Source: a candidate division LCP-89 bacterium B3_LCP (GTDB taxonomy: Bacteria > Electryoneota > B3-LCP). From it: a stretch of 64,000 bases of DNA. Below, piece by piece: positions 33,340-48,347 of the stretch (its first letter is position 1; the number at the start of each line of letters is the position of its first letter). The stretch lies in the NCBI GenBank assembly GCA_005223185.1, contig NJBN01000008.1:62001-126000 (forward strand). The letters are read 5' to 3'. The position numbers were made by a program, and so were the translations under genes. The notes below the pieces were generated by a model that was given only the letters and a program-made list of their open reading frames with translations, searched no databases and had not been told where the DNA came from.

Positions 33340-34529
33340 ACCGTTCGGTCTGGATCATCATTGTAGTCGCCCTGCTGTTTCGCATCCTTCTAATTTTTGC
33401 CACCCCACTTTACGATCAACCCGCCTTGATTCCCTATTTCAACGATGAACCGGCACATTACAATTATGTGAGTTATTTAGCAAAATACGGCAGATTGCCG
33501 GTTCAGACGTCATCGTCACAGGATGGCTTTGATGAATATAAATTCGAATACTATCAAGCGCCTCTGTACTATTTACTGGTATCACCTTTCAAGGCTATCG
33601 GTGAGAAGCTGACGCCGAGTTGGGAACATATATGGGTGCGCCTGGTTTCGGTGCTCTTTTCGCTGGCTGGGTTGATAGTTCTGTTCAGAACCGTTCAGAG
33701 CTTTTGTGAAAAGAGAAGGGCGGCGATATATCTGCTTCTATTAGCCGCCTTCGCAGGAATCCCGCTACGCTTCGGAGCGCTGGTGACTAACGACAGTCTG
33801 CTCTTTCTGATAGCCTGCCTCTATTTCAGCCTCATCTTACAGGTCATGAATTCCAAATGTGATAAGCGCTTATTATCTATGGGTATCTTAACCGTTGCTG
33901 CTGGTCTCTGGACCAAAGTATCCTTTATTGTAATGGTGCCGGTTCTGCCGCTGGTTCTCTGGAAGAAACCGACCTGCTCACGGCCAAAAGCTACAGCCGC
34001 ACTGATCTTACCGCTAATGGTAATCCTGCCCTGGTATTTCCGCAACTATCTGCTATATCAGAGATTCATACCTATCGAAGTCGGATTCGGTGGAGTTGAT
34101 CCGGTTACTCCACAGACTGCTCTATGGCGCATATTTTATACTGCTGACTATTTCGTCCGCTCCTTCGTCTTCCCCTACGATCAACTCTGGGGGGGATTCT
34201 TGGATCATCCGACCTATATCTTTGTAGCCACACTGATGATACTGCTGGTGATATTCGGTTTGAAGAAACTCCGTAACGATCAGCTTGAATGGTTCTGGGT
34301 TTTCATGCTGGCGATTGGGCTAAATCTGGGCGGTTACCTGTTGTTAAATGTCAGCCGCTTCCAGGCGGAAGCGAGGCTCCTGATTCCAGCTTTGCCGTTT
34401 ATTCTGTATCTCTTTGCAGCAGGAATTGAGAAAATGATGGGGGAGAGACAAAAGAGCGCCTATGTGCTGCTCGCTTTATGGATCGTCCTGCCCTGGGTGA
34501 GTGGGCTGGCTGGTAAGTTGATTATGTGA
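33336..34529 (+). CDS. Membrane glycosyltransferase of the PMT/ArnT type
   Basis: 397 residues from the ATG overlapping the upstream stop; a GTG at 33327 is possible. About ten membrane helices. The first extracytoplasmic loop after helix 1 has the acidic YFNDEPAHYNYVSYLAKYG motif typical of GT-C enzymes that use polyprenyl-phosphate sugars. It probably acts on a lipid or surface glycan. It is the last gene before the island boundary at 34615. Confidence 0.85.
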   Translation: MNRSVWIIIVVALLFRILLIFATPLYDQPALIPYFNDEPAHYNYVSYLAKYGRLPVQTSSSQDGFDEYKFEYYQAPLYYLLVSPFKAIGEKLTPSWEHIWVRLVSVLFSLAGLIVLFRTVQSFCEKRRAAIYLLLLAAFAGIPLRFGALVTNDSLLFLIACLYFSLILQVMNSKCDKRLLSMGILTVAAGLWTKVSFIVMVPVLPLVLWKKPTCSRPKATAALILPLMVILPWYFRNYLLYQRFIPIEVGFGGVDPVTPQTALWRIFYTADYFVRSFVFPYDQLWGGFLDHPTYIFVATLMILLVIFGLKKLRNDQLEWFWVFMLAIGLNLGGYLLLNVSRFQAEARLLIPALPFILYLFAAGIEKMMGERQKSAYVLLALWIVLPWVSGLAGKLIM

Positions 34530-34614
34530 TATATAACCACGTAGTGCTGGACTAAGTCCGTTAGCCGACAGATGTGGCGTAGCCACTCCCATGGAGCAAT
34601 CCGGCCATTACACG

Positions 34615-34653
34615 TGTACCCCTGAGACGATTCGAACATCCGACCCGCGGTTT
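34615..34653 (+). repeat. Island attachment site, left: 3' half of tRNA-Arg(CCT)
   Basis: Starts TGTACCCCTGAGACGATTCG and ends CGACCCGCGGTTT. It matches 43485-43523 with one difference (A for G). It covers the tRNA 3' end, T arm and the 3' side of the anticodon stem, which is the usual crossover region for tyrosine recombinases. Confidence 0.85.
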
Positions 34654-34719
34654 TTACGTTGAGAATGCTTAAATATGAATGAATATTTTGTATTATTTTG
34701 GAGTATTTTCGAGTTTCAT

Positions 34720-34739
34720 ATGTAGCAAATTATGTAACA
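34720..34739 (+). repeat. Paired ATGTARCA repeat near the left island end
   Basis: ATGTAGCA, AATT, ATGTAACA. The same arrangement with AATC as spacer is at 43416-43435. Possible integrase arm-type sites. Confidence 0.55.
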
Positions 34740-34830
34740 TCTGATTCAAGTGCGTTTTAAAGATCCGATGGGGCTGCACAAAGAATCAACTTGAAATCAC
34801 CGTATTGCAATTATTCTGCAATTAAGGATC

Positions 34831-34869
34831 AAAAAAAATGCCGGATTCATTTAGTTGGATCCGGTTTTT
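34831..34869. terminator. Bidirectional terminator-like hairpin
   Basis: A run of eight A, then CCGGAT paired with ATCCGG across a 12-base loop, then TTTTT. No nearby gene is known to use it. Confidence 0.55.
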
Positions 34870-35306
34870 CTTCATCGATATAATCAAGTCGTTTTTCGGT
34901 ATGTTAACCAGATCACTTGAAGGTCGGTAATAAGCCTGACCTTCGTTACGGCAACGATTCTTTCGGCTTCAACAATTGGATTGAACTCTCTGGTCTCTTT
35001 CAGACCTTACTTGAAAACATTAAGATAATTATAATGAATCCTTTGATTATGGCAAGTTAGAGAAAATACATGTTTTCGTCCGTTCTTCAAGCAATGATGG
35101 ACAGGTATATTCTGGATTCTTATATACGTCTAAAAAATATGATCGGTTTAAAACATATGCCTGGATATTACATTTGAACTTCATATATTGTCATTTGAAA
35201 GCTATTTTTGGGATGTTACTCAGTAATACTGTAAATGTGAAATGATTGAATATAATGATGTTATCGTTGTCAATAATAATATTTCTTTGAAAATACAAAA
35301 AAAAGC

Positions 35307-35335
35307 TTGACTTTTATGAAATAATTTGTTATAAT
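35307..35335 (+). promoter_or_regulatory. Consensus sigma70 promoter of the island RNA
   Basis: TTGACT, 17-bp spacer, TATAAT. Expected start near 35342. Confidence 0.8.
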
Positions 35336-35341
35336 TGGGGT

Positions 35342-35656
35342 AACTTCAAGAAAAGTAAGATTTCTCATGTGCGAGAACCCCACCGCGGGTGTGGGGCGCT
35401 TTATTGGGCAGGATGTACAAGCCTGCAAGATGAAAGGAAAACTGATTCGTGGAAGCAAAGGTGAATCGGCATCACCTGTTATGTCTATAGGATGCCAGTA
35501 AACAATGAATACTTAGTATACCGGTATTAACTTTTTCTTACAGAGTTCTACCTGTGTTATGCAGGGGTTGGCTGTGATTCAAGCCACTTCAAAACTTCAC
35601 ATATCAAGAAATGTCTTCACACCAGAGAGGATCATAGTGTCCTCTCTGGTTTTTTT
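35342..35656 (+). ncRNA. Candidate structured RNA of unknown class (stand-alone RNA or terminated leader)
   Basis: About 315 bases between a consensus promoter and a perfect terminator, with no sensible frame. The ends can pair: ATTTCT and ATGTG near 35361-35375 match CACAT and AGAAAT near 35598-35613. Inner hairpins include CCCCAC/GTGGGG (about 35378-35398), GCAGG/CCTGC (about 35407-35428), GATTC/GAATC (about 35444-35466) and GGCATC/GATGCC (about 35467-35494). I compared it by eye with c-di-GMP, SAM, cobalamin, THF, 6S, tmRNA and RNase P cores and saw no match. The secreted hydrolase-like gene starts 42 bases after the T run, so it could also be a regulatory leader. Confidence 0.55.
35622..35656 (+). 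terminator. Strong intrinsic terminator
   Basis: CCAGAGAGGA pairs perfectly with TCCTCTCTGG around an eight-base loop, followed by seven T. Confidence 0.9.
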
Positions 35657-35698
35657 ATGGATCAAGGAAGCAACAAATCAATTAATTTGGAGGTAGCC

Positions 35699-38600
35699 AT
35701 GAGAAAAGTAGCACTAATTCTTATATGCACAGCGAGTTTGATGTGTACATTATTTGTCGATGTATTAAGGTCGAGCACGTGGGGTACAGATCCAAGTTGG
35801 ATATCAAGTGATGATGCATTCACGATGAGTATCGCTTTAGGCGACATCGATTGCGATGGAGATTTGGATTTAGTGGCGGGTAACTATAAATACCCTTATA
35901 GCTGGTTAGGCAGCGATGCATCTGATATCGATTCAGCCAATATAGGTGGTGCATTAGTTGCTTATGAATACGATAACGGGAGTCTTACGAGCAATGATCC
36001 AACCACCTATTTTTCCTACATGTGTGTCGAATGTATCGACCTGGGCGACTATGATGGTGATGGTGACTTAGACGTTGCAGTTGGTACTATTGTGGGCAAG
36101 GGCAAAGATGGTGGTGTCAGAATTTATGAGAACATGTATTACCAGGGTATATCCTGGGACAGTCTGTACTATGGCGATCCTGTATTCACATCCGATAACT
36201 CGTATGATTGTGCTTGTGTGCGCTGGGTGGACTACGATTGTGATGGAGAGTTAGAATTAGCCGCTCTGGAAGTTAATGGGATGCTATATCTATATGACAG
36301 AAATGAACAGGATTGGGGTGAAAATGACCCAATCAGAATAGCTGAATACCCAGAATTCAGTGATGGGTCAGACCCAGGTGACCCTGAACCTCATCCGTTC
36401 GAGAGTTTTCCTATTCCTGGTACAACGATGGAATTTGGGGACATAGATGAAGATGGTTACCCTGATATGTTTGTAAACATGCAAGCAGGAGATAAAGACT
36501 TGGGAGGGAGTCAATGGGAGACTACGCCTTATATCTTCATCAACAAAGGAAGTTCTCCCTACTATTCTGTGAACGAATACTACCGTAATATTAAAAACGT
36601 TACAGATAAGGGGAGAGAAACAATCTCATGTGCCAGCTTCGGCTGGTGGTGGGAAGATCCGAAAGAGGAGCCAGTTTTTGCCCTGGCAATAGCAGGCAGA
36701 ACTCACATTCTCCCGGATGTGCCTGGATGGCCGTTAAACGAACAAAGGAAAGATAGAGACCCGAGAGGTGTAAATATCTACACTGTATCAAGCCACCCAA
36801 ATGAAGAACTAGATGATGAATGGGCCAGCAAATTTAACTATATTAATGATAATGAATGGCCACAATACTATACGGATATCATTTGGAGTAACATCGATGA
36901 CGATGATGAATGTAGTTCTAATAACCTGATGCTCAGTTCCTACGCCAACGCAGGCACAGATGGCCAGGGGGATTTAGACTGGGTGAGAGGATATGAGCAT
37001 CTCTTTATCGATCCCGCAACAACACCTTCTAACGACCAACTACCAGATTGGAAAAGTCTAACCACTGACCTCAGTACATGCTTGGCTGTTGGTGATTTAA
37101 GCGACGGAACCTCTCAAACCTATAGCGACACATTTGACGTGTCGGGTTTCAGCTCAAGAGGTTGGTTACACCCGTATCACAGACCGATCTGCTCAATAGA
37201 TAGCATCAAACAGCTTGTAAGTAGTACCTGGAGTGTTGTATCTGCATCTAATTACTGCTATGACCTGCAAGAAGCGTGGATTTCAATAGATGCAGATAGC
37301 GTCAGTTCAGCATCGAAGATTGCTATTCACTATACTTGCCACACGTACGTCGATCTCATCATCGGCAATGACGGAGAAAACGTAGCCTTCATTCACGATG
37401 TCGACCTCTTATCGTACAGTGAACCAACTTTATCAGTAACCGAACCCGATGATCGTTACACCTATGGCTGGGATTATAACGCTTCCGAAGAGTATGCCAT
37501 GGACGAAACGAACCCATTAGGAGTGACCTTCTCCCGCTGGGGACCGCCAGATGACGTTGATGCTATCCTCGATGATAACAAGAACATAGGTTTAACTGGC
37601 ATACACGTCGATTGGGGGGGAAGGGAAACTCTACAAGGTCATTTCTACTGGGATTACACCGATAGGAAGTTAGACTATGTTCATGATGCTGCAACGAGTA
37701 GAAATCTGAAGGCATTCGTAAGCGCCTTCGATCCAGCACCGCTCTGGACAAAGGGAGATTACGATCATGATCCAGGTGGCACATGGGAGGATGAGAAAAA
37801 GCGAGTAGCAGACGAACGGATTCACACTCAATACGTGCGTGCCCTGGTTAACCGGTACAGACCGGACGGTGTTTACGATCAGTGTACCGGTGGATCCTGG
37901 GGAGACTGGGGAGTTAAAATCTTCCAGTTTGAGAATGAACCCGACCATCACCCTTGGGAGTACAGTTGGAAGGGATACAAAGGTGACATGCCCAGTTCAG
38001 ATGATCCCAGAGTTCAAGCCATAGCGTATAAACTATTCTGGGAATATCAAATGGTAAACAATATCTCATACGATGCGTATGATGAAGTACATAACCTGAT
38101 GACTGTCTCGCCTAACTGGGGAACTCATCACCCGTCTCATTTTGACGATAGAATCAGTCCTACTGCTGTCTATCACGGAGTTCCACCGATACCCTATCTG
38201 AATGCCATAAACGCGGTTGGCTATCTGGACGGCGATAGCCTAAATTGTGATAGCGCGCTGGTAAAATACGTGGACTTCATAGCTCAGCAGTTCTATTGTG
38301 CTAAAAACTGGGCTCCTGATTTCGCAGACCCATTTGCGTATGAATGTGTGGATAACGACCCGGATTACATGCTGGGTAACGAGCATCTTGTCTGGGGATA
38401 CTACAATAACCTGACTCCCACACAGCGCATGCTCGAAATATACATTTACGGTGATACTACAGGTCAGCATACAGAATGGAATCCACTTTACCAGGATCAG
38501 ATAGAGGAACAAAACGAGCACCCCTTCCTCTTGATGGAATGGAACTTCGGTTTCTTAGAACAGAAGCTGGAATGGTCAGCTTCGCTGATTGCCGAAATTT

Positions 38601-40468
38601 TCTCCATAGACGTCTTTCCGGGATGCGAAGCCAGGGACCACTACCTGATACAGTACTGCGCGCCCGGCTGGGAAGAATGGACTGAATGGGAACCCGCTGC
38701 CCGCACCATGGACACCATGTCCAAGCTGCTGACGGGCAAGCGGATTAAGAGCTATACTTACCAAAGCACCCCACCTGAGAGCGATGACCTGGTGGCCATT
38801 ACCTACGTGGACCGCGATACTTCGACGCATCTGGTAGATATTATCAGGACATACGAGGATCCCAAGACCTCCGCTACCGACTTTGTGCTGGATAACCAGG
38901 ACCTGGATACCTACGACCGCCTCCTGGTTTACGACATAACCGGCGGCTTTATGGACCGGGGCGTGGTGGATACCGGTAGCGATATGGCGGTTGAATTTGC
39001 CGCCAACGAACTACGGGAGGACTGGTTACTCTTAGTAGATGAAGGCGCTGCTGATTCTGCTGGCGCGGATGAATACGCCCAGGGCATCCAATTAGAGCGC
39101 GGGTGGAACCTGATATCCTGGTACTTAGTGCCGTCTGATACGACGGGTGGTGATTTATGCTTTGAGGATCTCTTTGGTGATACCGCCGGGATTACCTGGT
39201 TCGATAACGACCAGACGGATATTACCGATAAGGTTGGGAAATATGATATGAGACCACAATGGTACTACTACCCTCAAAACGGTTATGGCTACGAAGTAGG
39301 GACTCGTTGGGAATGGGATCTGAAACAGTCCTACCCCATCTACATGGAAAGTCCTGCACACCATTGGGTGTTTGAGGATCAGGACCTTTTCGAACCCGAT
39401 AGCGCTGATTTCACTCCCCATGACGCCTGGGATGATTACACTCAGGTCGGACTGCAGAATCCCGCACAGCCCACGCACTGGTACTTCATAGCGTACGCTT
39501 CCAGGAAACAGATCGATATCGAAGGGAGCAATACCTTATCCTGGCTCTTTGCTTATGAAAATAATCAATTAAGCATAATCAAAGATGATGAAGGAAATTG
39601 GTATATCGAAGACAACCATGCATCGAAACTGAAGTACTTGACACCTGGGAAAGGCTACTATCTTGGTTTTGGGGATGATGAAGAGGTGGAAAACTGTCCC
39701 TGGTTCAGTGATGAGGGCTCAGTACCAGCCAGCCTTCCTATCGATCCCAAAACGACCCTCAGCATCACTAGCTCCGCTTCCCATTTCCAGTTTATAGAGA
39801 AGACTCACTGGTGGTATCCCATTCAGATTGATACCATTGCAGTGGATGGGGAAAGTCCGGTGGAAGGCGATGAGATCGCCGTATTCGACGGGAATCTGTG
39901 CGTGGGCGCCGTGGTTTTCGATGGCGAATATCCCATATCCATGGCAGCTTGGATGGATGACGTCGTTACACCGGATGAAACTGACGGTTACTATCCCAGC
40001 AACGATATGACCTTCATCTGGTTCGACGTATCTGAAAACCAGGAGCTCACCTTCAATGCTCCGCCGGAAATTTACGGAGCTCAGCCCGAAATTGATCCTT
40101 TGTATCCGAGTCATTCCGGTTTCGGCGTCGGTTTCTGTGCCGTACGCAGTCTTGTTGATGGAGTGAATTCTGTCCTGCAGCTTCCCACGGTGTACAAATT
40201 AGGTCAAAACTATCCCAATCCTTTCAATGCTCAGACGGTGATTCCGCTGGAACTGCCCCAGAGATCACATCTTAAAATTGAGCTTTTCAACATTATGGGG
40301 CAGAATTTAGGCGTCATCTATGAAGGTGTTGAAGAGGCAGGTTGGGCAAAGGTCAGGTACAATTCCAGATACCTGCCGTCCGGCGTTTACCTCTATCTCA
40401 TCACGGCTGAAGGCTTGGAACGAGGAGGAAAATTCCAGGATGTTGGTAAGATGGTGCTGGTAAAATAA
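35699..40468 (+). CDS. Large secreted glycoside-hydrolase-like protein with FG-GAP repeats and sorting domain
   Basis: 1589 residues from ATG 35699 with GGAGG upstream; the frame opens earlier at 35657, just after a terminator, and is rejected. Signal peptide 1 to about 22. FG-GAP/VCBS repeats with calcium-type loops (GDIDCDGDLDLV, GDYDGDGDLDVA) fill about 35-210. A TIM-barrel-like region (about 610-1060) has a putative acid/base Glu in FENEPD near 745 and a nucleophile candidate in LMEWNFG near 946, as in clan A glycosidases. Later come a GWNLISWYLVP module and a C-terminal sorting domain with NYPNPFNAQTVIP. It probably degrades a polysaccharide outside the cell. The substrate and exact GH family are not readable. 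Confidence 0.8.
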   Translation: MRKVALILICTASLMCTLFVDVLRSSTWGTDPSWISSDDAFTMSIALGDIDCDGDLDLVAGNYKYPYSWLGSDASDIDSANIGGALVAYEYDNGSLTSNDPTTYFSYMCVECIDLGDYDGDGDLDVAVGTIVGKGKDGGVRIYENMYYQGISWDSLYYGDPVFTSDNSYDCACVRWVDYDCDGELELAALEVNGMLYLYDRNEQDWGENDPIRIAEYPEFSDGSDPGDPEPHPFESFPIPGTTMEFGDIDEDGYPDMFVNMQAGDKDLGGSQWETTPYIFINKGSSPYYSVNEYYRNIKNVTDKGRETISCASFGWWWEDPKEEPVFALAIAGRTHILPDVPGWPLNEQRKDRDPRGVNIYTVSSHPNEELDDEWASKFNYINDNEWPQYYTDIIWSNIDDDDECSSNNLMLSSYANAGTDGQGDLDWVRGYEHLFIDPATTPSNDQLPDWKSLTTDLSTCLAVGDLSDGTSQTYSDTFDVSGFSSRGWLHPYHRPICSIDSIKQLVSSTWSVVSASNYCYDLQEAWISIDADSVSSASKIAIHYTCHTYVDLIIGNDGENVAFIHDVDLLSYSEPTLSVTEPDDRYTYGWDYNASEEYAMDETNPLGVTFSRWGPPDDVDAILDDNKNIGLTGIHVDWGGRETLQGHFYWDYTDRKLDYVHDAATSRNLKAFVSAFDPAPLWTKGDYDHDPGGTWEDEKKRVADERIHTQYVRALVNRYRPDGVYDQCTGGSWGDWGVKIFQFENEPDHHPWEYSWKGYKGDMPSSDDPRVQAIAYKLFWEYQMVNNISYDAYDEVHNLMTVSPNWGTHHPSHFDDRISPTAVYHGVPPIPYLNAINAVGYLDGDSLNCDSALVKYVDFIAQQFYCAKNWAPDFADPFAYECVDNDPDYMLGNEHLVWGYYNNLTPTQRMLEIYIYGDTTGQHTEWNPLYQDQIEEQNEHPFLLMEWNFGFLEQKLEWSASLIAEIFSIDVFPGCEARDHYLIQYCAPGWEEWTEWEPAARTMDTMSKLLTGKRIKSYTYQSTPPESDDLVAITYVDRDTSTHLVDIIRTYEDPKTSATDFVLDNQDLDTYDRLLVYDITGGFMDRGVVDTGSDMAVEFAANELREDWLLLVDEGAADSAGADEYAQGIQLERGWNLISWYLVPSDTTGGDLCFEDLFGDTAGITWFDNDQTDITDKVGKYDMRPQWYYYPQNGYGYEVGTRWEWDLKQSYPIYMESPAHHWVFEDQDLFEPDSADFTPHDAWDDYTQVGLQNPAQPTHWYFIAYASRKQIDIEGSNTLSWLFAYENNQLSIIKDDEGNWYIEDNHASKLKYLTPGKGYYLGFGDDEEVENCPWFSDEGSVPASLPIDPKTTLSITSSASHFQFIEKTHWWYPIQIDTIAVDGESPVEGDEIAVFDGNLCVGAVVFDGEYPISMAAWMDDVVTPDETDGYYPSNDMTFIWFDVSENQELTFNAPPEIYGAQPEIDPLYPSHSGFGVGFCAVRSLVDGVNSVLQLPTVYKLGQNYPNPFNAQTVIPLELPQRSHLKIELFNIMGQNLGVIYEGVEEAGWAKVRYNSRYLPSGVYLYLITAEGLERGGKFQDVGKMVLVK

Positions 40469-40563
40469 ACTAAAACCGTGGGGCGGGGGAAACACCCCCG
40501 CCCTACGATTATGAACTTATGGGTCTTTACCTTTAAAAATCGTTCTACAAAAAATAATTTCTC

Positions 40564-40592
40564 TTGACTTTCGTGATTTGAGAGCTTATATT
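40564..40592 (+). promoter_or_regulatory. Promoter of the FG-GAP protein gene
   Basis: TTGACT, 17-bp spacer, TATATT, 29 bases before the ATG at 40622. Confidence 0.75.
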
Positions 40593-40621
40593 TAAGTTAG
40601 GGAGAAATCAGGAGGTTAATC

Positions 40622-42658
40622 ATGAAGTACACAATCATATTTCTACTACTCCCGCTTGTTGCGTTTGCACAGGAATTTGAATTCCAGCAGGAGTTGGACA
40701 CAATTCCTATCGAGATTGATGGATACCAACTACCCTATCCCTGGCTGGGTGGGTTTGCACTAACTAATCCAGCACTTGTCGATATAGACGCTGATGGTTT
40801 GTATGAAATGGTTATGTCCAATAACAAAGGTGGACTATATTATTTGGAAAACGACGGAACTCCGCAAGTACCGGATTTCTATATCGAAGAAGAGGAGTGG
40901 CAGGGAATTGACCTGAATATGGGATTATTTCCATTTTTCTGTGATATTGACGCAGACAGCGATCTGGATTTAATTTTAGAAACTGTTAGTCTCCCTATAT
41001 ATATCTATGAAAATGTGGGGACGATTTATGATCCCGTCTTTGAATTGCTGGAAGATATGGTGGAGGATACAAGTGGGACTCCCATCGAAGGTACATTCGG
41101 AGATCTTGTGGACATAGACGGAGATGGTGATTATGACTTCTTCACGGGGAATTGGTATTCATGTACAATTAGCTTTTATGAAAATGTCGGTGATTCCAGC
41201 AGTTATGCCTTTGCCCTGGTTACTACAAATTTTCAGGGTATCAGCACTAACGGTTATAAGAATTACCTTGAATTCTGCGATATCGACGCCGATGGGGACT
41301 GGGATCTTTACATAGGTACTGACGAAGGGTACATCTATTATTTCCGTAACGACAGCGTGCTGCCGGATTATACATTCACCTGTTTATCCACGAATTATTT
41401 GGGTGAAGATGTTGGAGATGATGCAAATCCTGAATTTTGTGACATAGATGCAGATGGAGATTTCGACCTCTTCGTTGGCAAAGGGAACGAATACGATCAC
41501 AATGACAATGGTGATATGCAGTTCTGGCGCAATGAAGGTACTATGGAAGTAAGCAATTTCGTGCAAGAAAACCAGATGTATTTGACCTTTGATATAGCCG
41601 GTGCTGATGAGCCGGATTTTGTAGATTATAATTACGATAGTGACATGGATCTGTACGTTCTCTATAAATATATAGCGTTGCTTAGCAATGTTGGTAATGC
41701 TGAGGATCCGTCCTTCCAGGTGGTTGACCTCGAAATGGTTGGCTCTGGCTTTTTAGCTTCAAGTAATGACTACGGCGATCTAAACGATGATGGTGATGAG
41801 GATATGGTGGTAGCAGGCGGCTGGTCAGGTATAGTTGGGTTCTGGGAATGCGATGGCGACACGAGTCTGCCGGGCTTTACAGAGCAGACATCAATTGATG
41901 TAGGTTGTTTGTTAGGTTCTCCAGCTCTTGGTGACCTGGATGCGGACGGTGACCTGGATATGATTCTTTCAGCGACCAATTGGTCAAGTTTTTGGAATTT
42001 TTATTACGAAAATCAGGGCACGCCCGAACATTTCAACTACGTTCTAATTGATTCGAATTTCCAGGGGATATATATAGATGAGGGTGCTGTGCCCAGTCTG
42101 GTTGACTTCGATTTCGACGGGGACCTCGACTTAATGCTCGGCGGAATAGGGTATTCGGCTGTGAATTATATTTGGTACTATGAAAACCAGGGAACGCCTG
42201 AGGTACCGGATATGGTTTTAGTATCGCAAGACCTGTTGGGATTGGGCGAAATTAATACCGGTTATGGAGTAGAGTTTGTGGACATCGATAACGATATGGA
42301 TTTCGACGTGTTCGCAGGAACTGAGGCAGGCGGTATAAAATTCTACCGCAACATTACAGAACACGCAGAAGTCGGTCCTAAGCGGCCTATAGGTCCGCCG
42401 AAATACAGCATAGATTCTGATTTAACACACAATCCTCAACAATCCTTGTTTACTTTCACCTTACCCAGCCCGCAAAATGTTACACTGGCGGTGTACAACC
42501 TCCTGGGTCGTAAGATAACCACTATCGTAAGTGGCAGCCAGCCGGCTGGCACGCACTCCTTCCTCTGGAATCCATCATCGCAAGCGTCGGGGGTGTATAT
42601 TATCCGCCTTGAGACCGCGCAGGAAGCAGTAGCTAAAAGGGTTATGGTGGTGAGGTGA
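40622..42658 (+). CDS. Secreted FG-GAP/VCBS repeat protein with sorting domain
   Basis: 678 residues from ATG with AGGAGG six bases upstream. The short signal peptide MKYTIIFLLLPLVAFA is followed by about nine repeats with DIDADGD-type calcium loops and YENxGT connectors, predicted to form a beta-propeller. The C-terminal 80 residues (LFTFTLPSPQNVTLAVYNLLGRK to VYIIRLE) are a sorting domain that lacks the classic NPFNP box. It lacks an obvious catalytic site, so binding or adhesion is more likely. It shares its repeat type with the large hydrolase-like protein upstream. Confidence 0.88.
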   Translation: MKYTIIFLLLPLVAFAQEFEFQQELDTIPIEIDGYQLPYPWLGGFALTNPALVDIDADGLYEMVMSNNKGGLYYLENDGTPQVPDFYIEEEEWQGIDLNMGLFPFFCDIDADSDLDLILETVSLPIYIYENVGTIYDPVFELLEDMVEDTSGTPIEGTFGDLVDIDGDGDYDFFTGNWYSCTISFYENVGDSSSYAFALVTTNFQGISTNGYKNYLEFCDIDADGDWDLYIGTDEGYIYYFRNDSVLPDYTFTCLSTNYLGEDVGDDANPEFCDIDADGDFDLFVGKGNEYDHNDNGDMQFWRNEGTMEVSNFVQENQMYLTFDIAGADEPDFVDYNYDSDMDLYVLYKYIALLSNVGNAEDPSFQVVDLEMVGSGFLASSNDYGDLNDDGDEDMVVAGGWSGIVGFWECDGDTSLPGFTEQTSIDVGCLLGSPALGDLDADGDLDMILSATNWSSFWNFYYENQGTPEHFNYVLIDSNFQGIYIDEGAVPSLVDFDFDGDLDLMLGGIGYSAVNYIWYYENQGTPEVPDMVLVSQDLLGLGEINTGYGVEFVDIDNDMDFDVFAGTEAGGIKFYRNITEHAEVGPKRPIGPPKYSIDSDLTHNPQQSLFTFTLPSPQNVTLAVYNLLGRKITTIVSGSQPAGTHSFLWNPSSQASGVYIIRLETAQEAVAKRVMVVR

Positions 42659-42744
42659 AGTTTAATATCTAGAAGTTAATCTGTGCAAAGAAAGTCATAG
42701 GCAAATTAAGTATTATTAATCATTGTAAGCCTTGATGAGGCAAT

Positions 42745-43089
42745 ATGAAGAAATTAGCATTGCCAGTCATTGCTGTATCGCTTTTCGTCATTCTCTTATT
42801 TGGATTTTGTGGAATTTGCACAGCAGCTCAATATGATGCCATCGTTGTCAACGATACAACTGGCGTTGGTATTGATTCTGTTCAGGTAAGTTGGACATTC
42901 CCTGATACTACTTCATTCCTCACTTATACGGACACTAACGGAAAGACAAGTGTGAACTACAACGGCTCTTCTGGAAACACCACTGTCTCCGTTTTCAAAT
43001 CCGGCTATCACCCTGTACACCCAGCATCGGGAACAATAAACGCGACTACAAGTCAATATCGATACCTGTTTACGATGTTACCGAATTAA
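42745..43089 (+). CDS. Small secreted protein with a carboxypeptidase-regulatory-like fold
   Basis: 114 residues with GAGG upstream. An N-terminal hydrophobic segment and signal peptide (LFVILLFGFCGICTA) precede one beta-sandwich of about 85 residues. The pattern VVNDTTGVGIDSVQVSW...TDTNGKTSVNYN...VSVFKSGYHP is that of CarboxypepD_reg-like or PEGA-type modules in FCB secreted proteins. No sorting domain follows. It is the last island gene, ends in a strong terminator, and its function is unknown. Confidence 0.75.
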   Translation: MKKLALPVIAVSLFVILLFGFCGICTAAQYDAIVVNDTTGVGIDSVQVSWTFPDTTSFLTYTDTNGKTSVNYNGSSGNTTVSVFKSGYHPVHPASGTINATTSQYRYLFTMLPN

Positions 43090-43114
43090 TTTGAATATCG
43101 GAATTAAGATGCAG

Positions 43115-43145
43115 AAAAGAGCTCAGTTTGCTGAGCTCTTTTTCT
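43115..43145 (+). terminator. Intrinsic terminator
   Basis: AAAAGAGCTCAG pairs with CTGAGCTCTTTT around TTTG; T-rich sequence follows. It ends the transcript of the small secreted protein gene. Confidence 0.9.
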
Positions 43146-43301
43146 ATAAAAAACAACGTCATTTAAGATAGAAATAACTTAGATCGAAGCCCTATAAATC
43201 TTATATAGAATTTGTTTTATGGGGTTAATTCCTCAATCGGTTTTCCGTCCAGACCAGCGTCCATAGCTATTTCCTTGCACCGTTTGGCAAGGGTTGAGTC
43301 A

Positions 43302-43421
43302 AATCACGTTGTGCTAAGTTCGATTTCCGTCACCGAGCGGTATCTACACGCGATTCCCGATGATCTTCGGGAAGCAGCTGAGATTCTATCAAAAAAGGCG
43401 AAAATTACGGTTGCTATGTAG
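43302..43421 (+). pseudogene. C-terminal remnant of a tyrosine recombinase (integrase)
   Basis: The last 39 codons read NHVVLSSISVTERYLH, then IPDDLREAAEIL, and stop at TAG. SSISVTERYLH matches the box II region of tyrosine recombinases, where the Tyr is the nucleophile. The preceding His of the usual LGH box is retained only in altered form. No upstream catalytic Arg region exists, so the rest of the gene is gone. It ends 66 bases from the tRNA gene, where an island integrase is expected. Confidence 0.65.
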
Positions 43422-43435
43422 CAAATCATGTAGCA
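43416..43435 (+). repeat. Paired ATGTAGCA repeat near the right island end
   Basis: ATGTAGCA, AATC, ATGTAGCA, overlapping the stop codon of the integrase remnant. Counterpart of 34720-34739. Confidence 0.55.
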
Positions 43436-43486
43436 CAGCGAATTCTTAAATTGGCAGCATCCCACTTATTTTCAATAGAATCACTG

Positions 43487-43560
43487 TACCCCTGAGACGA
43501 TTCGAACGTCCGACCCGCGGTTTAGGAAACCGCTGCTCTATCCAACTGAGCTACAGGGGC
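43487..43560 (-). tRNA. tRNA-Arg (anticodon CCT)
   Basis: Cloverleaf on the minus strand: acceptor GCCCCTG with CAGGGGT (first pair G-U), D-arm AGCTCAGTTGGATAGAGC, anticodon loop TTCCTAA on a GCGGT/ACCGC stem, T loop TTCGAAT. CCA is not encoded. It decodes AGG. Its 3' half is duplicated at 34615-34653. Confidence 0.95.
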
Positions 43561-43667
43561 GATTAACAAAAAGAATGTAACGTCAAATGCCCCTTAAATC
43601 CAGTATTTTTTTGAAATTCTCTGAATAGTTCTGCGTGCCACCTATCCGCTGACTCACTGTCCGTAAG

Positions 43668-43806
43668 GACCACCAAGTGGAAGTAAATTTAATCGCCGAG
43701 TGCGGTGACTCGGCTACACTGGTGATGAAACCCAACCCTGAAGGATCGGGCACCTACCATTGGGTGCGTGCCATAGGCATTCCTAGGGAGCAACACTTGG
43801 TGTAAC
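43668..43806. repeat. Branched palindrome beside the tRNA gene
   Basis: The outer arms CACCAAGTG and CACTTGGTG enclose a GCCGAGT...ACTCGGC hairpin and CCCAACC/GGGTGC type arms. The form resembles the other multi-hairpin repeats, but the sequence differs. Confidence 0.6.
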
Positions 43807-43832
43807 AATTCCCAATTCTACATTCAATATTC

Positions 43833-44249
43833 TTACAACTCCCCAAAATACCCTTCAATCCTTTTCCTGATCTCATCCCGCACGCGTTCAAATACCGCCA
43901 GCTTTTCCGCATCGGTTCCTGTGGCTGAGGCAGGATCATCGAAGGACCAGTGCAGACGTTCCCCTCGGGTGGGGATATACGGACAGTTTTCCTTAGCATT
44001 TTCGCACACAGTGATAACTATGTCGAACTCCTTCTCACCGAAACTCCCCACTGTTTTCGATTCGTGATGGGAAATATCAATGCCAATACGCTTCATGGCT
44101 TCTATTGCTGGAATGCGCACCTGTGTCTTCTCCGTTCCAGCAGAAAAAGCCTGAAAACCATCGCCATACAGGTGATTCAAGAGACCTTCTGCCATCTGGC
44201 TTCTGGCTGAATTATGAGTACACACGAAAAGGACGGTTTTGGGGATCAA
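43833..44249 (-). CDS. arsC: Arsenate reductase, thioredoxin-coupled (low-molecular-weight phosphatase fold)
   Basis: 138 residues from a TTG behind AAAGGAAG. Reduces arsenate to arsenite. The P-loop CTHNSARSQ holds the nucleophilic Cys, and the two redox cysteines are in VCENAKENCP, as in the Bacillus/Staphylococcus type. SFDDPASATGT near 102 carries the general acid Asp. No ars transporter or ArsR gene is adjacent, so it is an isolated gene next to the island. Confidence 0.93.
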   Translation of the reverse strand: MIPKTVLFVCTHNSARSQMAEGLLNHLYGDGFQAFSAGTEKTQVRIPAIEAMKRIGIDISHHESKTVGSFGEKEFDIVITVCENAKENCPYIPTRGERLHWSFDDPASATGTDAEKLAVFERVRDEIRKRIEGYFGEL

Positions 44250-44514
44250 ATCAGCTTCCTTTACTTATACACAATCTTGGGGATATGTAGAAGCATCAGT
44301 AAGAGGGGGACATTCTAACAAAAACATGACCTATCAACAAAACCACCTGTCCTCCGGCTGTGACGCTTCCAAAAAGGTTTGATGGTCGGTTTTTTAATGT
44401 AAATGATATTTTAGTGAAAACTCTAAAAAGTGTGGGGATCTAGTGCTCAAAGTGGGCGAACAATAGCTTTTTTATGAAGAAGGAAAAGAGGGAGTTTCTT
44501 TTTAAAATCCAACT
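44250..44514. other. Gene-free spacer
   Basis: No credible gene, promoter consensus or repeat family member was seen here, apart from the arsC leader at its left end. Confidence 0.5.
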
Positions 44515-45951
44515 CTAGATATTTTCCTTCTCAAAGTTTTTTACCACTTTATCCACATGCTTTAGTTTGACAACTCTCATCCTATTTGCGAGAATTCTTC
44601 CTATTTTTTCTTTTCTTTTTCTAGTTAACCCCTGTTCTGTTTGAATGTCTATTGCCTGTAAAAGTTCATCTGCAGTTATTTGATTTGTAGCTACTAATAT
44701 CTCGCCAATCCGCAAATCTGAAGGACTACTTGTTTTAATAGCCTCCTTCATCTTAGATTTCTCAATCATTTTTGCATGGATTACTTCTGGATTCATACCT
44801 AATAGGTTAGCCCTTTCAAACAAAATTGTGTCATGAATATTTTTAGTTCCTTTTTTGCTTCTAGATTTCGCGCCAGTTTCGGAAATCTTCAGTAAGTCCG
44901 TTTTCGTTATTGTTTCCTTTTGGGCATTTTCTTCAAAAGATACCACTAAGTCGGCAACTAGATTTACCCACTTTTTCCACTCTTCATCTATTGCCAGAAA
45001 ATGATTGATGCCTGGGAGAACCATCATTCCCAGACCCCAATCTGTAGGCATAATTTGCTGTAAAACATCATGACTGATCATCTGATCTCGCCCACCAAAG
45101 AGGAAAAGGATTCTTCTTCCATGTTCTTTTAATAGTTCTTTACTGGGGTTGGTATATTCTCCTAAGACTATACCTTCAAAAAGCCGATCCTTTAGAACAT
45201 CTTTACGTTTATCTGAGAAATATTTTTCGAGAATATTATTGAACTTATCCCATTTTTTTTGATCGAAAAGACGCTCTGCATTAACATTTTTCAAATTTAC
45301 AGCGCCATTCAATAAAAAACAGGCATTTAACCTCTTCTCGTTCTCCAAGAAAGCACAGAGCATCATCGCAGCGCCCAATGAATAGCCCAGATACGAGACT
45401 CGCACGTTTCTCGAAAATAAATTTTTATAAAAAAAGCAGGAGTTTTGAGGTTTCACACAATCCGTTTTCCCTTTAATGTGATTTAGCAACTCTTCGATTT
45501 CATCTCTGTACTGGTTGAAGCGAATATAGAACATGTCAGCTTCATTCAAGATTACTTCACTTGGTTTGCTAGTTAATTGTCTATAACTTGGATTCTTTAT
45601 CCGAAAACGGGTATGCCGATTCAAATGATCTGGTAAGGGTAGAAGAACACTTATGATTCCACGAGATGCCAGGCGGCTGCCTAACTCGTCATATAGTGAA
45701 TAATGGTTAATCTCATCTAATCCATTTGTCATGACGATTACACGATCAGCTTTTTTTCTGGCGTCTGATAGAATCTCACGGGGAATGTAGAATCGCAGAA
45801 AGAAGCGGTGATAGTCTTCAATACCCAGCCTTGGATTATGTGCACAAGCTGGAGAAAGCTTGTGCATGCAAACAAACTGATCATTTGCGTAAACTATCTG
45901 CTCGTCTTTTGTTCGATCCTCATGTCTGACACGACTTATTTCTGGAAGCAT
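44515..45951 (-). CDS. Alpha/beta hydrolase fused to a C-terminal MshEN-like domain
   Basis: 478 residues. The N-terminal hydrolase (about 45-335) has the nucleophile Ser191 in GYSLGA, acid Asp289 in GGRDQM and His317 in GINHFLA, a complete triad. A Lys-rich linker (about 345-400) leads to RIGEILVATNQITADELLQA (413-432) and a second, weaker copy from about 449 (KIGRILANRMRVV). The first copy fits the 24-residue RLGxxL...I...L...L..Q pattern of MshEN/T2SSE N-terminal domains, some of which bind c-di-GMP. No signal peptide. The natural substrate is unknown. A terminator hairpin lies immediately upstream of its Shine-Dalgarno (AAGGAG). The gene is AT-rich compared with its neighbours. Confidence 0.75.
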   Translation of the reverse strand: MLPEISRVRHEDRTKDEQIVYANDQFVCMHKLSPACAHNPRLGIEDYHRFFLRFYIPREILSDARKKADRVIVMTNGLDEINHYSLYDELGSRLASRGIISVLLPLPDHLNRHTRFRIKNPSYRQLTSKPSEVILNEADMFYIRFNQYRDEIEELLNHIKGKTDCVKPQNSCFFYKNLFSRNVRVSYLGYSLGAAMMLCAFLENEKRLNACFLLNGAVNLKNVNAERLFDQKKWDKFNNILEKYFSDKRKDVLKDRLFEGIVLGEYTNPSKELLKEHGRRILFLFGGRDQMISHDVLQQIMPTDWGLGMMVLPGINHFLAIDEEWKKWVNLVADLVVSFEENAQKETITKTDLLKISETGAKSRSKKGTKNIHDTILFERANLLGMNPEVIHAKMIEKSKMKEAIKTSSPSDLRIGEILVATNQITADELLQAIDIQTEQGLTRKRKEKIGRILANRMRVVKLKHVDKVVKNFEKENI

Positions 45952-45966
45952 AGTTTTTCTCCTTAC

Positions 45967-46005
45967 AAAAAAAGATCAGTCTTCTTACTCATAAGAAGTC
46001 TGATC
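45967..46005 (-). terminator. Leader terminator just upstream of the hydrolase Shine-Dalgarno
   Basis: On the minus strand GATCAG, A, CTTCTTA pairs with TAAGAAG, A, CTGATC around a short loop, then seven T. AAGGAG follows within three bases and the ATG about 15 bases after the T run, so transcripts from upstream would stop before the gene unless read through. Confidence 0.75.
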
Positions 46006-46526
46006 CTATTAATTCGAATTCGCTTACTGCTTCTTAATCAAGGTATATTCAGTTTCGAAACAGCATACCCGTCGGAATGCTGGTATAGTATCTTCCTACT
46101 CCTTGAACATTTATCGTGAATGCGGAATCACTTGCGGTTTGCAAATCTGAACCTTTAATTCTATTTTAACAAGTGGTATTGGACGCTCCTAATAAAGCAA
46201 CCTTCATGTTTTAAATATTAACGTAACCTGCCAATCACTCTTCTATGTAATTTATACTCCTTGTCCTAATTTCGAAAAATAATTTAGTAAATAAATGTTG
46301 CGGATGCAATTAAAATTTCTAATTTCCTTTAAAGACCAATCAAACTCATTGACTTCAGTCAATTGGATCTTAAAATTGAACACCGGAACTTTAGTCCGGT
46401 GCATAAGCGGAAAAGTAGACAGTTCCCACCCAACCAACAGCGAATCCGGGAAGTAGCCCTTGATTTAATAAACGGATATGCCTATATTTATCCCGAATTT
46501 AACCGAAATTCGTCTAACTTTTCATC
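46006..46526. other. Gene-free divergent spacer
   Basis: The left part is the upstream region of the hydrolase gene and the right part holds the ABC exporter promoter. A repeat at about 46330-46410 has CAATTG arms, then CACCGGAACTTTAGTCCGGTG (also at 17855-17880). No gene longer than 40 codons is convincing. Confidence 0.6.
46460..46488 (+). promoter_or_regulatory. Promoter of the ABC exporter gene
   Basis: TTGATT, 17-bp spacer, TATATT, 38 bases before the ATG at 46527. Confidence 0.65.
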
Positions 46527-48347
46527 ATGCGACCCTATATACGATTACTCTCGCTCATCAAACCGTATAAGAAGACGCTCCTCCTGGCGTTCTTCTGTTC
46601 GGTGATGTACGCCCTATTCAATGCTGTGGCGATCTGGTTCTCAGCCTCATTTATCACCGCTATATTCACTCCGGAAACAAACCAGCTAACTGCGGGCATA
46701 TCTGATCAAGCCGCGAGTCTAAATGAGAATCTCAAAGTCCTGGCATGGCAGATCATCGGCGGAGGAGACCGCTTCGATATCGTCATGCGGGCTGTGATGA
46801 TCTTCTTTCTGGCATTTCTCTTTCGCAATGCTTTCGACGTCAGCCAGGTTTACCTGATCACTTTTGTCGAACAGAGGGTCATCAAGGACCTGCGCGACAA
46901 ACTGTACCGCCACATGTTGTCACAATCGCTGGGTTTTTTCCACAGGCGCAAGTCAGGCGAACTGGCTTCGGTTACCTTAAACGACGTGACCGCTTTGCAG
47001 GAAAAGATGATGAAGGCGATCAAATTCATCATGCGGGAGCCGTTCGTTATAGTCCTGTTTCTGTTCCTTCTCTTTACGATCTCATGGAAGCTGACGCTTA
47101 CCATCCTGATAATCGCGCCTGTTGCTGGCTTGTTGATCGATGTGTTGGGTAAGAGTCTCAAGCGCAAGAGTTCCCGTATGCAGGAAGCTCTGTCCAATGT
47201 AACTGCGCTTCTGTATGAGCGGTTGGGAGGAATTCGCCTGATAAAAACTGCAGGCACTGAAGACCAGGAAATAGATAGATTTGAAGGCACGACAACGAGT
47301 TACTTTCGAAAAGCGTTACGCCAGCGCAGATTTGATATTTTGATAGTGCCCTTAACGGAAATTATTGGGCTGGCGATCATTTCGCTGATACTGATTTACG
47401 GCGGTTACTTAGTTTTCCGCACCTCGACCATGGATGCTGAAGATTTCGTCCGCTTCATAGCTATCGTGTTCGCGATATTGGCTCCCGCTAAAGAACTTGG
47501 TGGAGCTTACACATCTGTGCAGATTGCTTCCGCATTTGCCGCGCGTATCTTCGGAATTATGGATACTAAAGAACAACTACCGACGGCAAAAGAACCTGTA
47601 CAGGTAGATAACCTGAAAAAAGCCATTCGCTTAGATGACGTCAGTTTTCGGTATTCGCAAAAAGATGATAACGCCCTTTCCCATGTTGATCTGAATATCA
47701 ACCGAGATGAAACTATTGCGCTGGTGGGGCCATCCGGAGCGGGGAAGACCACTCTGATTGGATTAATCACCCGTCTTTTCGATCCCACCCAAGGAAGTAT
47801 AAAGCTTGATGACGTCAACTTACGTGATCTGGACATCAATGGGTTACGCAAGCTCTTCGGTGTAGTCAGTCAGGATATCGTACTCTTCAATGATACTGTG
47901 GCTGCGAACATCGCCTATGGAACCCGTGAAATCGACTTGGATCGCGTCCATGAAGTGGCAAAGTTAGCCTATGCTGATGATTTCATCAGAGCGATGCATG
48001 AAGGATATGATACTAAAATCGGCGACCGGGGGATGCGCCTTTCCGGTGGTCAGCAGCAGCGGCTCTCAATTGCACGGGCGCTGGTTCACGATCCGCCAGT
48101 GATAATCTTCGATGAAGCCACTTCTCATCTTGACAGTGAATCTGAGAACCTGATCCAACAGGCTATGGAATCGCTGCGAGAGAATCACACGCTGATCGTG
48201 ATAGCTCACCGCCTGGCGACAGTGCGCCGCGCCGACCGCATTGTGGTGTTAGATAAGGGCACAATCATCGATCAGGGAACGTACGATGAACTACATGATC
48301 GCTGTGAACTGTTCACCCGCCTCTGCCAGCAGCAATTTCTGACTTAA
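46527..48347 (+). CDS. ABC exporter, fused permease and ATPase (MsbA-like)
   Basis: 606 residues. Six membrane helices in 1-330, with the export-ABC coupling region SQSLGFFHRRKSGELASVTLND. The ATPase follows, with Walker A GPSGAGKTTL near 390, signature LSGGQQQRLSIARAL and Walker B VIIFDEATSHLD. The half-transporter would work as a homodimer, exporting lipid or another hydrophobic compound. It is followed after one base by a receiver-domain gene, so the two share a transcript. Confidence 0.93.
   Translation: MRPYIRLLSLIKPYKKTLLLAFFCSVMYALFNAVAIWFSASFITAIFTPETNQLTAGISDQAASLNENLKVLAWQIIGGGDRFDIVMRAVMIFFLAFLFRNAFDVSQVYLITFVEQRVIKDLRDKLYRHMLSQSLGFFHRRKSGELASVTLNDVTALQEKMMKAIKFIMREPFVIVLFLFLLFTISWKLTLTILIIAPVAGLLIDVLGKSLKRKSSRMQEALSNVTALLYERLGGIRLIKTAGTEDQEIDRFEGTTTSYFRKALRQRRFDILIVPLTEIIGLAIISLILIYGGYLVFRTSTMDAEDFVRFIAIVFAILAPAKELGGAYTSVQIASAFAARIFGIMDTKEQLPTAKEPVQVDNLKKAIRLDDVSFRYSQKDDNALSHVDLNINRDETIALVGPSGAGKTTLIGLITRLFDPTQGSIKLDDVNLRDLDINGLRKLFGVVSQDIVLFNDTVAANIAYGTREIDLDRVHEVAKLAYADDFIRAMHEGYDTKIGDRGMRLSGGQQQRLSIARALVHDPPVIIFDEATSHLDSESENLIQQAMESLRENHTLIVIAHRLATVRRADRIVVLDKGTIIDQGTYDELHDRCELFTRLCQQQFLT

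Follow-up and report, generated by a model that had tools for sequence, protein, structure and literature searches.

A block of 8.9 kb in the analysed window (the whole stretch of 64,000 nt, bases 62001-126000 of contig C9 of a 3.79-Mb candidate division LCP-89 genome in 18 contigs, here G000) is a decayed tRNA-integrated island, and is very probably what is left of an integrative element that once occupied tRNA-Arg(CCT), had its core deleted and kept its cargo. Candidate division LCP-89 has been placed in the FCB group, and the window's family is represented in the collection by six genomes (G000-G005). Because the decayed block can be tied to intact relatives in the same tRNA, it becomes possible to define an element family in an uncultured phylum, together with the family's core genes and the arm sites of its integrase.

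Ends of the island

The intact tRNA-Arg(CCT), the only tRNA in the window, lies on the minus strand at 43486-43560, and its 3' half forms attL. Its 3' end thus points to the left, and the left repeat copy (34615-34653, minus strand) is the displaced 3' half, attR, in the orientation and order that a tRNA-integrated element leaves behind. The preliminary description's 39-bp, one-mismatch repeat of the tRNA 3' half at both ends was recovered by a repeat search permitting three mismatches, which returned just two copies in the window (34615-34653 and 43485-43523, 8,870 nt apart) and none in 100 shuffles. The identity ends within the anticodon loop; the corresponding repeat of the intact element in G001 is 48 nt long with zero mismatches.

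Inside these repeats lie paired arm-type sites. The left pair, TATGTAGCAAATTATGTAACA (34719-34739, plus strand), recurs in the intact G001 element, again at the left end. The right pair (43415-43435, plus strand) overlaps the stop codon of the integrase and stands about 50 nt away from the tRNA, a spacing of 50, 50 and 49 nt in G000, G001 and G005, respectively. The pairs had been placed 67-105 bases inside or near each end; their presence was borne out, with corrected positions of 66 nt inside the repeat on the left and about 50 nt from the tRNA on the right. The motif TGTARCA-N4-ATGTARCA matches exactly at 34721-34739 and 43417-43435; with two mismatches permitted, the expectation is 0.31 matches, and two or more turned up in 4 of 100 shuffles. 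With a free 5-nt spacer, the motif was confined, among 122 loci, to tRNA-Arg(CCT) elements, those of G000, G001 and G005. Additionally, the island and the G001 element have homologous left ends by local alignment (score 33.5; the highest of 500 shuffles was 18), and the homology takes in a terminator-like hairpin (34840-34870, plus strand). Terminator-like hairpins are abundant here generally (16 seen vs. 6.7 expected in window positions 34500-43800).

Entry would have proceeded by tyrosine-recombinase recombination between attP and the 3' half of tRNA-Arg(CCT), with the integrase bound to the TGTARCA pairs that lie within either end and cutting in the shared tRNA segment. The tRNA would thereby have been rebuilt with the element's own 3' half, and the original 3' half shifted to the far left end. 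A compositional contrast between inside and outside, suggested earlier as a check, did not appear: GC content is 0.443 in the island vs. 0.481 and 0.434 in the flanks, and the island's tetranucleotide distance falls within the range of ordinary tiles, leaving a foreign origin unsupported by composition.

Relatives at the same tRNA

The closest point of comparison is an intact 11.9-kb element in tRNA-Arg(CCT) of G001 (candidate division LCP-89 bacterium Meg19_1012_Bin_459, JALGVT010000007.1). Its core comprises a 361-aa integrase, an ArdC protein (domains ArdcN and MPTase-PolyVal), a clamp-loader-like ATPase and a second tyrosine recombinase. It shares with the window the tRNA, the arm sites, a homologous left end and an integrase 91% identical over the surviving stump, in agreement with the earlier reading of the block as a tRNA-integrated element; it differs from the window in its intact core and in its cargo of glycosyltransferases and GH130 proteins (phosphorylases). 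The integrase at tRNA-Arg(CCT) in G005 is 66% identical to that of G001, and the integrases of this tRNA class form one clade with a support of 100/100. Of the features that define the LCP-89 tRNA-Arg(CCT) family, the window carries the integrase clade and the TGTARCA pairs at both ends, and has the core of ArdC and clamp-loader ATPase as remnants only.

An empty tRNA-Arg site in relatives, proposed earlier as a check, was located in G004, where the tRNA is uninterrupted; ahead of it, separated by one additional gene, stand the aroB, aroQ, GNAT-like and mannosyltransferase genes known from the left flank in the window. In G002 a second copy of the tRNA 3' part lies 7.7 kb off, and no integrase is present there; in G003, where the locus is on a short contig, neither arm pairs nor a second tRNA copy were found. 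The right flank (window 43560-48000) is not conserved, proS adjoining tRNA-Arg(CCT) in G001, G002 and G004 and lying on contig C12 in the window's own genome.

Gene remnants and the deletion junction

Remnants of three core genes (integrase, ATPase and ArdC) are present in the island, of which the ATPase and ArdC pieces are reported here for the first time. An ArdC anti-restriction gene remnant (34876-34999, minus strand) corresponds to ArdC residues 132-147 and 159-181 at 70-75% identity by tblastn, and to the G001 ardC at 80% nucleotide identity over 60 nt. At the other end lie 88 nt (43230-43317, minus strand) of a phage-type clamp-loader (DnaX-like) ATPase gene; this remnant has a 1-nt frameshift, and its closest copy is an intact gene of the same genome (G000:C16:249892-249980; 92% nucleotide identity over 89 positions). 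The integrase stump (43317-43421, plus strand) retains the last 34 codons with the catalytic-tyrosine region SVTERYLH, and matches the end of the intact G001 integrase at 91% amino acid (34 aa) and 81% nucleotide identity. The recombinase similarity predicted for the stump was therefore found, and with a tyrosine recombinase of an intact element at the same tRNA. The recombinase C-terminus described earlier beside the intact tRNA holds for these 34 residues; the rest of its 69-aa ORF is the ATPase remnant, which lies upstream of the stump on the opposite strand, so that the ORF is a chimera of two broken genes. Similarly, the earlier statement that the cargo lacks phage genes is accurate for the intact genes and has to be amended for the ATPase and ArdC remnants.

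The ATPase remnant meets the integrase stump exactly at 43317, indicating that the right end was formed by a deletion that extends from within the ATPase gene to the 3' end of the integrase gene. Such a deletion, reaching to the last 34 integrase codons, would have taken away the mobility functions, and the element is presumably immobile now. Considered together, these observations leave next to no room for the left tRNA fragment being a decayed tandem tRNA gene with an unrelated stump beside it: tRNA duplications do happen, but this account is contradicted by the arm pairs at both ends, the homologous left ends, the three remnants of one gene module and the intact element in the same tRNA.

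The arrangement of the remnants is the reverse of the G001 core order, with ArdC at the left end and the ATPase at the right. One simple deletion does not explain this order; it requires that another element occupied the slot as well or that the block was rearranged internally. Beyond the island, past the 5' end of the tRNA, alignment revealed a second integrase fragment (43569-43640, minus strand) that scores 67 vs. a maximum of 47 in 300 shuffles and matches best with tRNA-Arg(CCT) integrases. Its 24 aa align with residues 280-303 of the G001 integrase at 46% identity, and it lies in the opposite orientation. The opposed positions of the ArdC and ATPase remnants, together with this additional integrase fragment and a tRNA that lacks proS as its neighbour, show that the locus saw more than one event.

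A tandem array in the same genome

The same features raise the question of whether at least two elements entered this tRNA in turn and were fused by deletions, the island being a collapsed tandem array. We regard this as a serious possibility, to which we give somewhat less than even weight. Consistent with it are the opposite ends at which the ArdC and ATPase remnants lie and the occurrence, across the tRNA, of a further integrase fragment belonging to the same class, and the same genome does contain related elements arrayed in tandem at tRNA-Arg(TCT) (G000:C16:233930-306477). There, displaced 3' fragments of the tRNA (233930-234003) lie at three positions (261899, 298118 and 306417), each of the first two att sites has an integrase directly inside it, and two ArdC-ATPase modules occur at 249-252 and 284-286 kb. 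Two of the three displaced fragments are broken by short inserts in their T-loop part.

However, just one displaced tRNA-Arg(CCT) fragment is among the matches listed for the window's genome, and inside the 298-kb end of the C16 array the relatives of cargo 1 and cargo 2, another secreted protein, the ATPase and ArdC already follow each other in the order seen in the window, so that one element suffices for most of the window. The C16 elements resemble the island in this cargo order next to attR and in the ArdC-ATPase core, and differ in having an integrase of another clade, another target tRNA, a tandem arrangement and restriction and other defence genes. The first unit of the array holds type IIG-like and type IV-like restriction genes. 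Defence genes are also found at C16:270478-282181, where type I restriction genes for methylase and specificity and a SIR2-like gene followed by a Dsr1-like gene were noted.

Cargo genes and leader

Three secreted-protein genes on the plus strand make up the intact cargo. Domain searches assigned FG-GAP repeats and a type IX secretion tail both to cargo 1 (35699-40468), a secreted protein of 1,589 aa, and to cargo 2 (40622-42658), of 678 aa; cargo 1 has in addition a central domain that is possibly a glycoside hydrolase. Cargo 3 (42745-43089) is an ORF for a small protein of 114 aa with a probable signal peptide and no family match in domain and family searches. This cargo had been called unusual; on the contrary, its class is ordinary for the genome, in which at least 150 type IX secretion tails were counted, and such tails were rejected as a mark of island cargo for that reason. 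Relatives of cargo 2 were likewise rejected as an island mark, with 24 matches in the same genome; since this large family is dispersed across the genome, cargo 2 provides no evidence for mobility.

The central domain of cargo 1 may be a glycoside hydrolase, a reading that rests on the motifs FENEP and EHPF...EW since the AlphaFold model of the domain failed (pLDDT 37); no relative of solved structure was found by sequence. The domain occurs at nine places in 4 of 61 genomes. With the window excluded, five of the eight places (G000 C18, G000 C16, G003 C294, G004 C33 and G005 C195) have an integrase or core module no more than 20 kb away, a limit that was chosen afterwards and for which a rough estimate expects at most about 9% of places to be so situated.

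Upstream of cargo 1, an extended sigma-70-like promoter (TTGACT-17-TATAAT, 35307-35335, plus strand, 11/12 matches) precedes a candidate RNA (35342-35656, plus strand, fold z-score -2.6) whose end is formed by the block's strongest terminator-like hairpin (35621-35650). Rfam searches of the island and of the candidate RNA alone returned the tRNA only, and a DNA search of 39 genomes of the phylum gave no convincing relative of the RNA. The preliminary description had counted this RNA as cargo; it is better read as the 5' leader of cargo 1, given that a TTGACT promoter and a hairpin also precede two cargo 1 paralogues, on C16 and C18. The upstream regions of these paralogues are 78% identical to each other, sharing the TTGACTTTTA promoter start and a hairpin ahead of the ribosome site, and have in common with the window's leader the promoter and hairpin only. 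Judged from these sequence features, such a leader is what the candidate RNA most likely represents, and conditional termination within it is the likeliest reading of its role. The cargo was retained and is probably expressed.

Core genes, phage relationships and known systems

Among 81 genomes, clear relatives of the ATPase were found in G000, G001 and G005 only. Elsewhere, relatives occur in planctomycete MAGs (45-56% identity) and on IMG/VR contigs (43-52%), some of the latter carrying terminase, head protein, RecT or exonuclease genes, which marks the ATPase as one of phage type. Additionally, both core proteins (ATPase and ArdC) were assigned to phage families by PHROG. These relationships would fit a prophage remnant, with the clamp loader and ArdC left from a phage stripped of its structural genes; such an origin is nonetheless improbable, as no structural or packaging genes were recognised in the island or, with all larger genes scanned, in the intact G001 element, and the core recurs in C16 beside secreted and restriction genes. 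A test for an integrative conjugative or mobilisable element (ICE/IME) also recognised no relaxase or conjugation genes in the island or the G001 element.

An integrative element decayed by deletion, the reading preferred here, places the island beside those of the Islander catalogue, which maps tRNA-integrated islands by an intact tDNA and a displaced fragment (PMC4383910). The two have in common the intact tRNA, a displaced 3' fragment in the same orientation (here downstream on the same strand), a tyrosine integrase next to the tRNA and a size of 2-200 kb; the window's host belongs to an uncultured phylum, unlike the hosts of Islander islands. The integrase ORF on which Islander relies is reduced in the island to its last 34 codons and is intact in the G001 relative, and the Islander integrase filter would consequently reject the island. 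In architecture, the block may also be likened to tycheposons, tRNA-bordered cargo elements with a tyrosine recombinase (PMC10872708), which share the tRNA border, the tyrosine recombinase and variable cargo and occur in another phylum.

The LCP-89 family to which the element would have belonged has a core of a site-specific integrase, ArdC and a phage-type clamp-loader ATPase, in some members with a second tyrosine recombinase, and its cargo varies, with secreted type IX proteins, restriction systems and glycan enzymes among it. More tentatively, and with less confidence than in the collapsed-array account, LCP-89 may host an undescribed tRNA-targeted family, combining the tyrosine integrase with ArdC and the phage-type clamp-loader ATPase and lacking structural and conjugation genes, that disseminates type IX-secreted proteins of very large size (in some cases preceded by attenuator-like leaders) along with defence systems, possibly packaged by a helper phage; no description of this combination was found in the literature searched, of which coverage was partial. 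Intact relatives sit in other tRNA genes of the same genome and its kin. Overall, the findings suggest one way in which secreted surface proteins of very large size, which are otherwise nothing unusual in these bacteria, may pass from one genome to another.

A further element, of about 20 kb with 38-nt ends, was observed at a tRNA-Lys in G002 (G002:C1:101470-121707). It is filled with type IX-secreted proteins and has arm pairs of its own, TTTTGCAGTA occurring twice per end.
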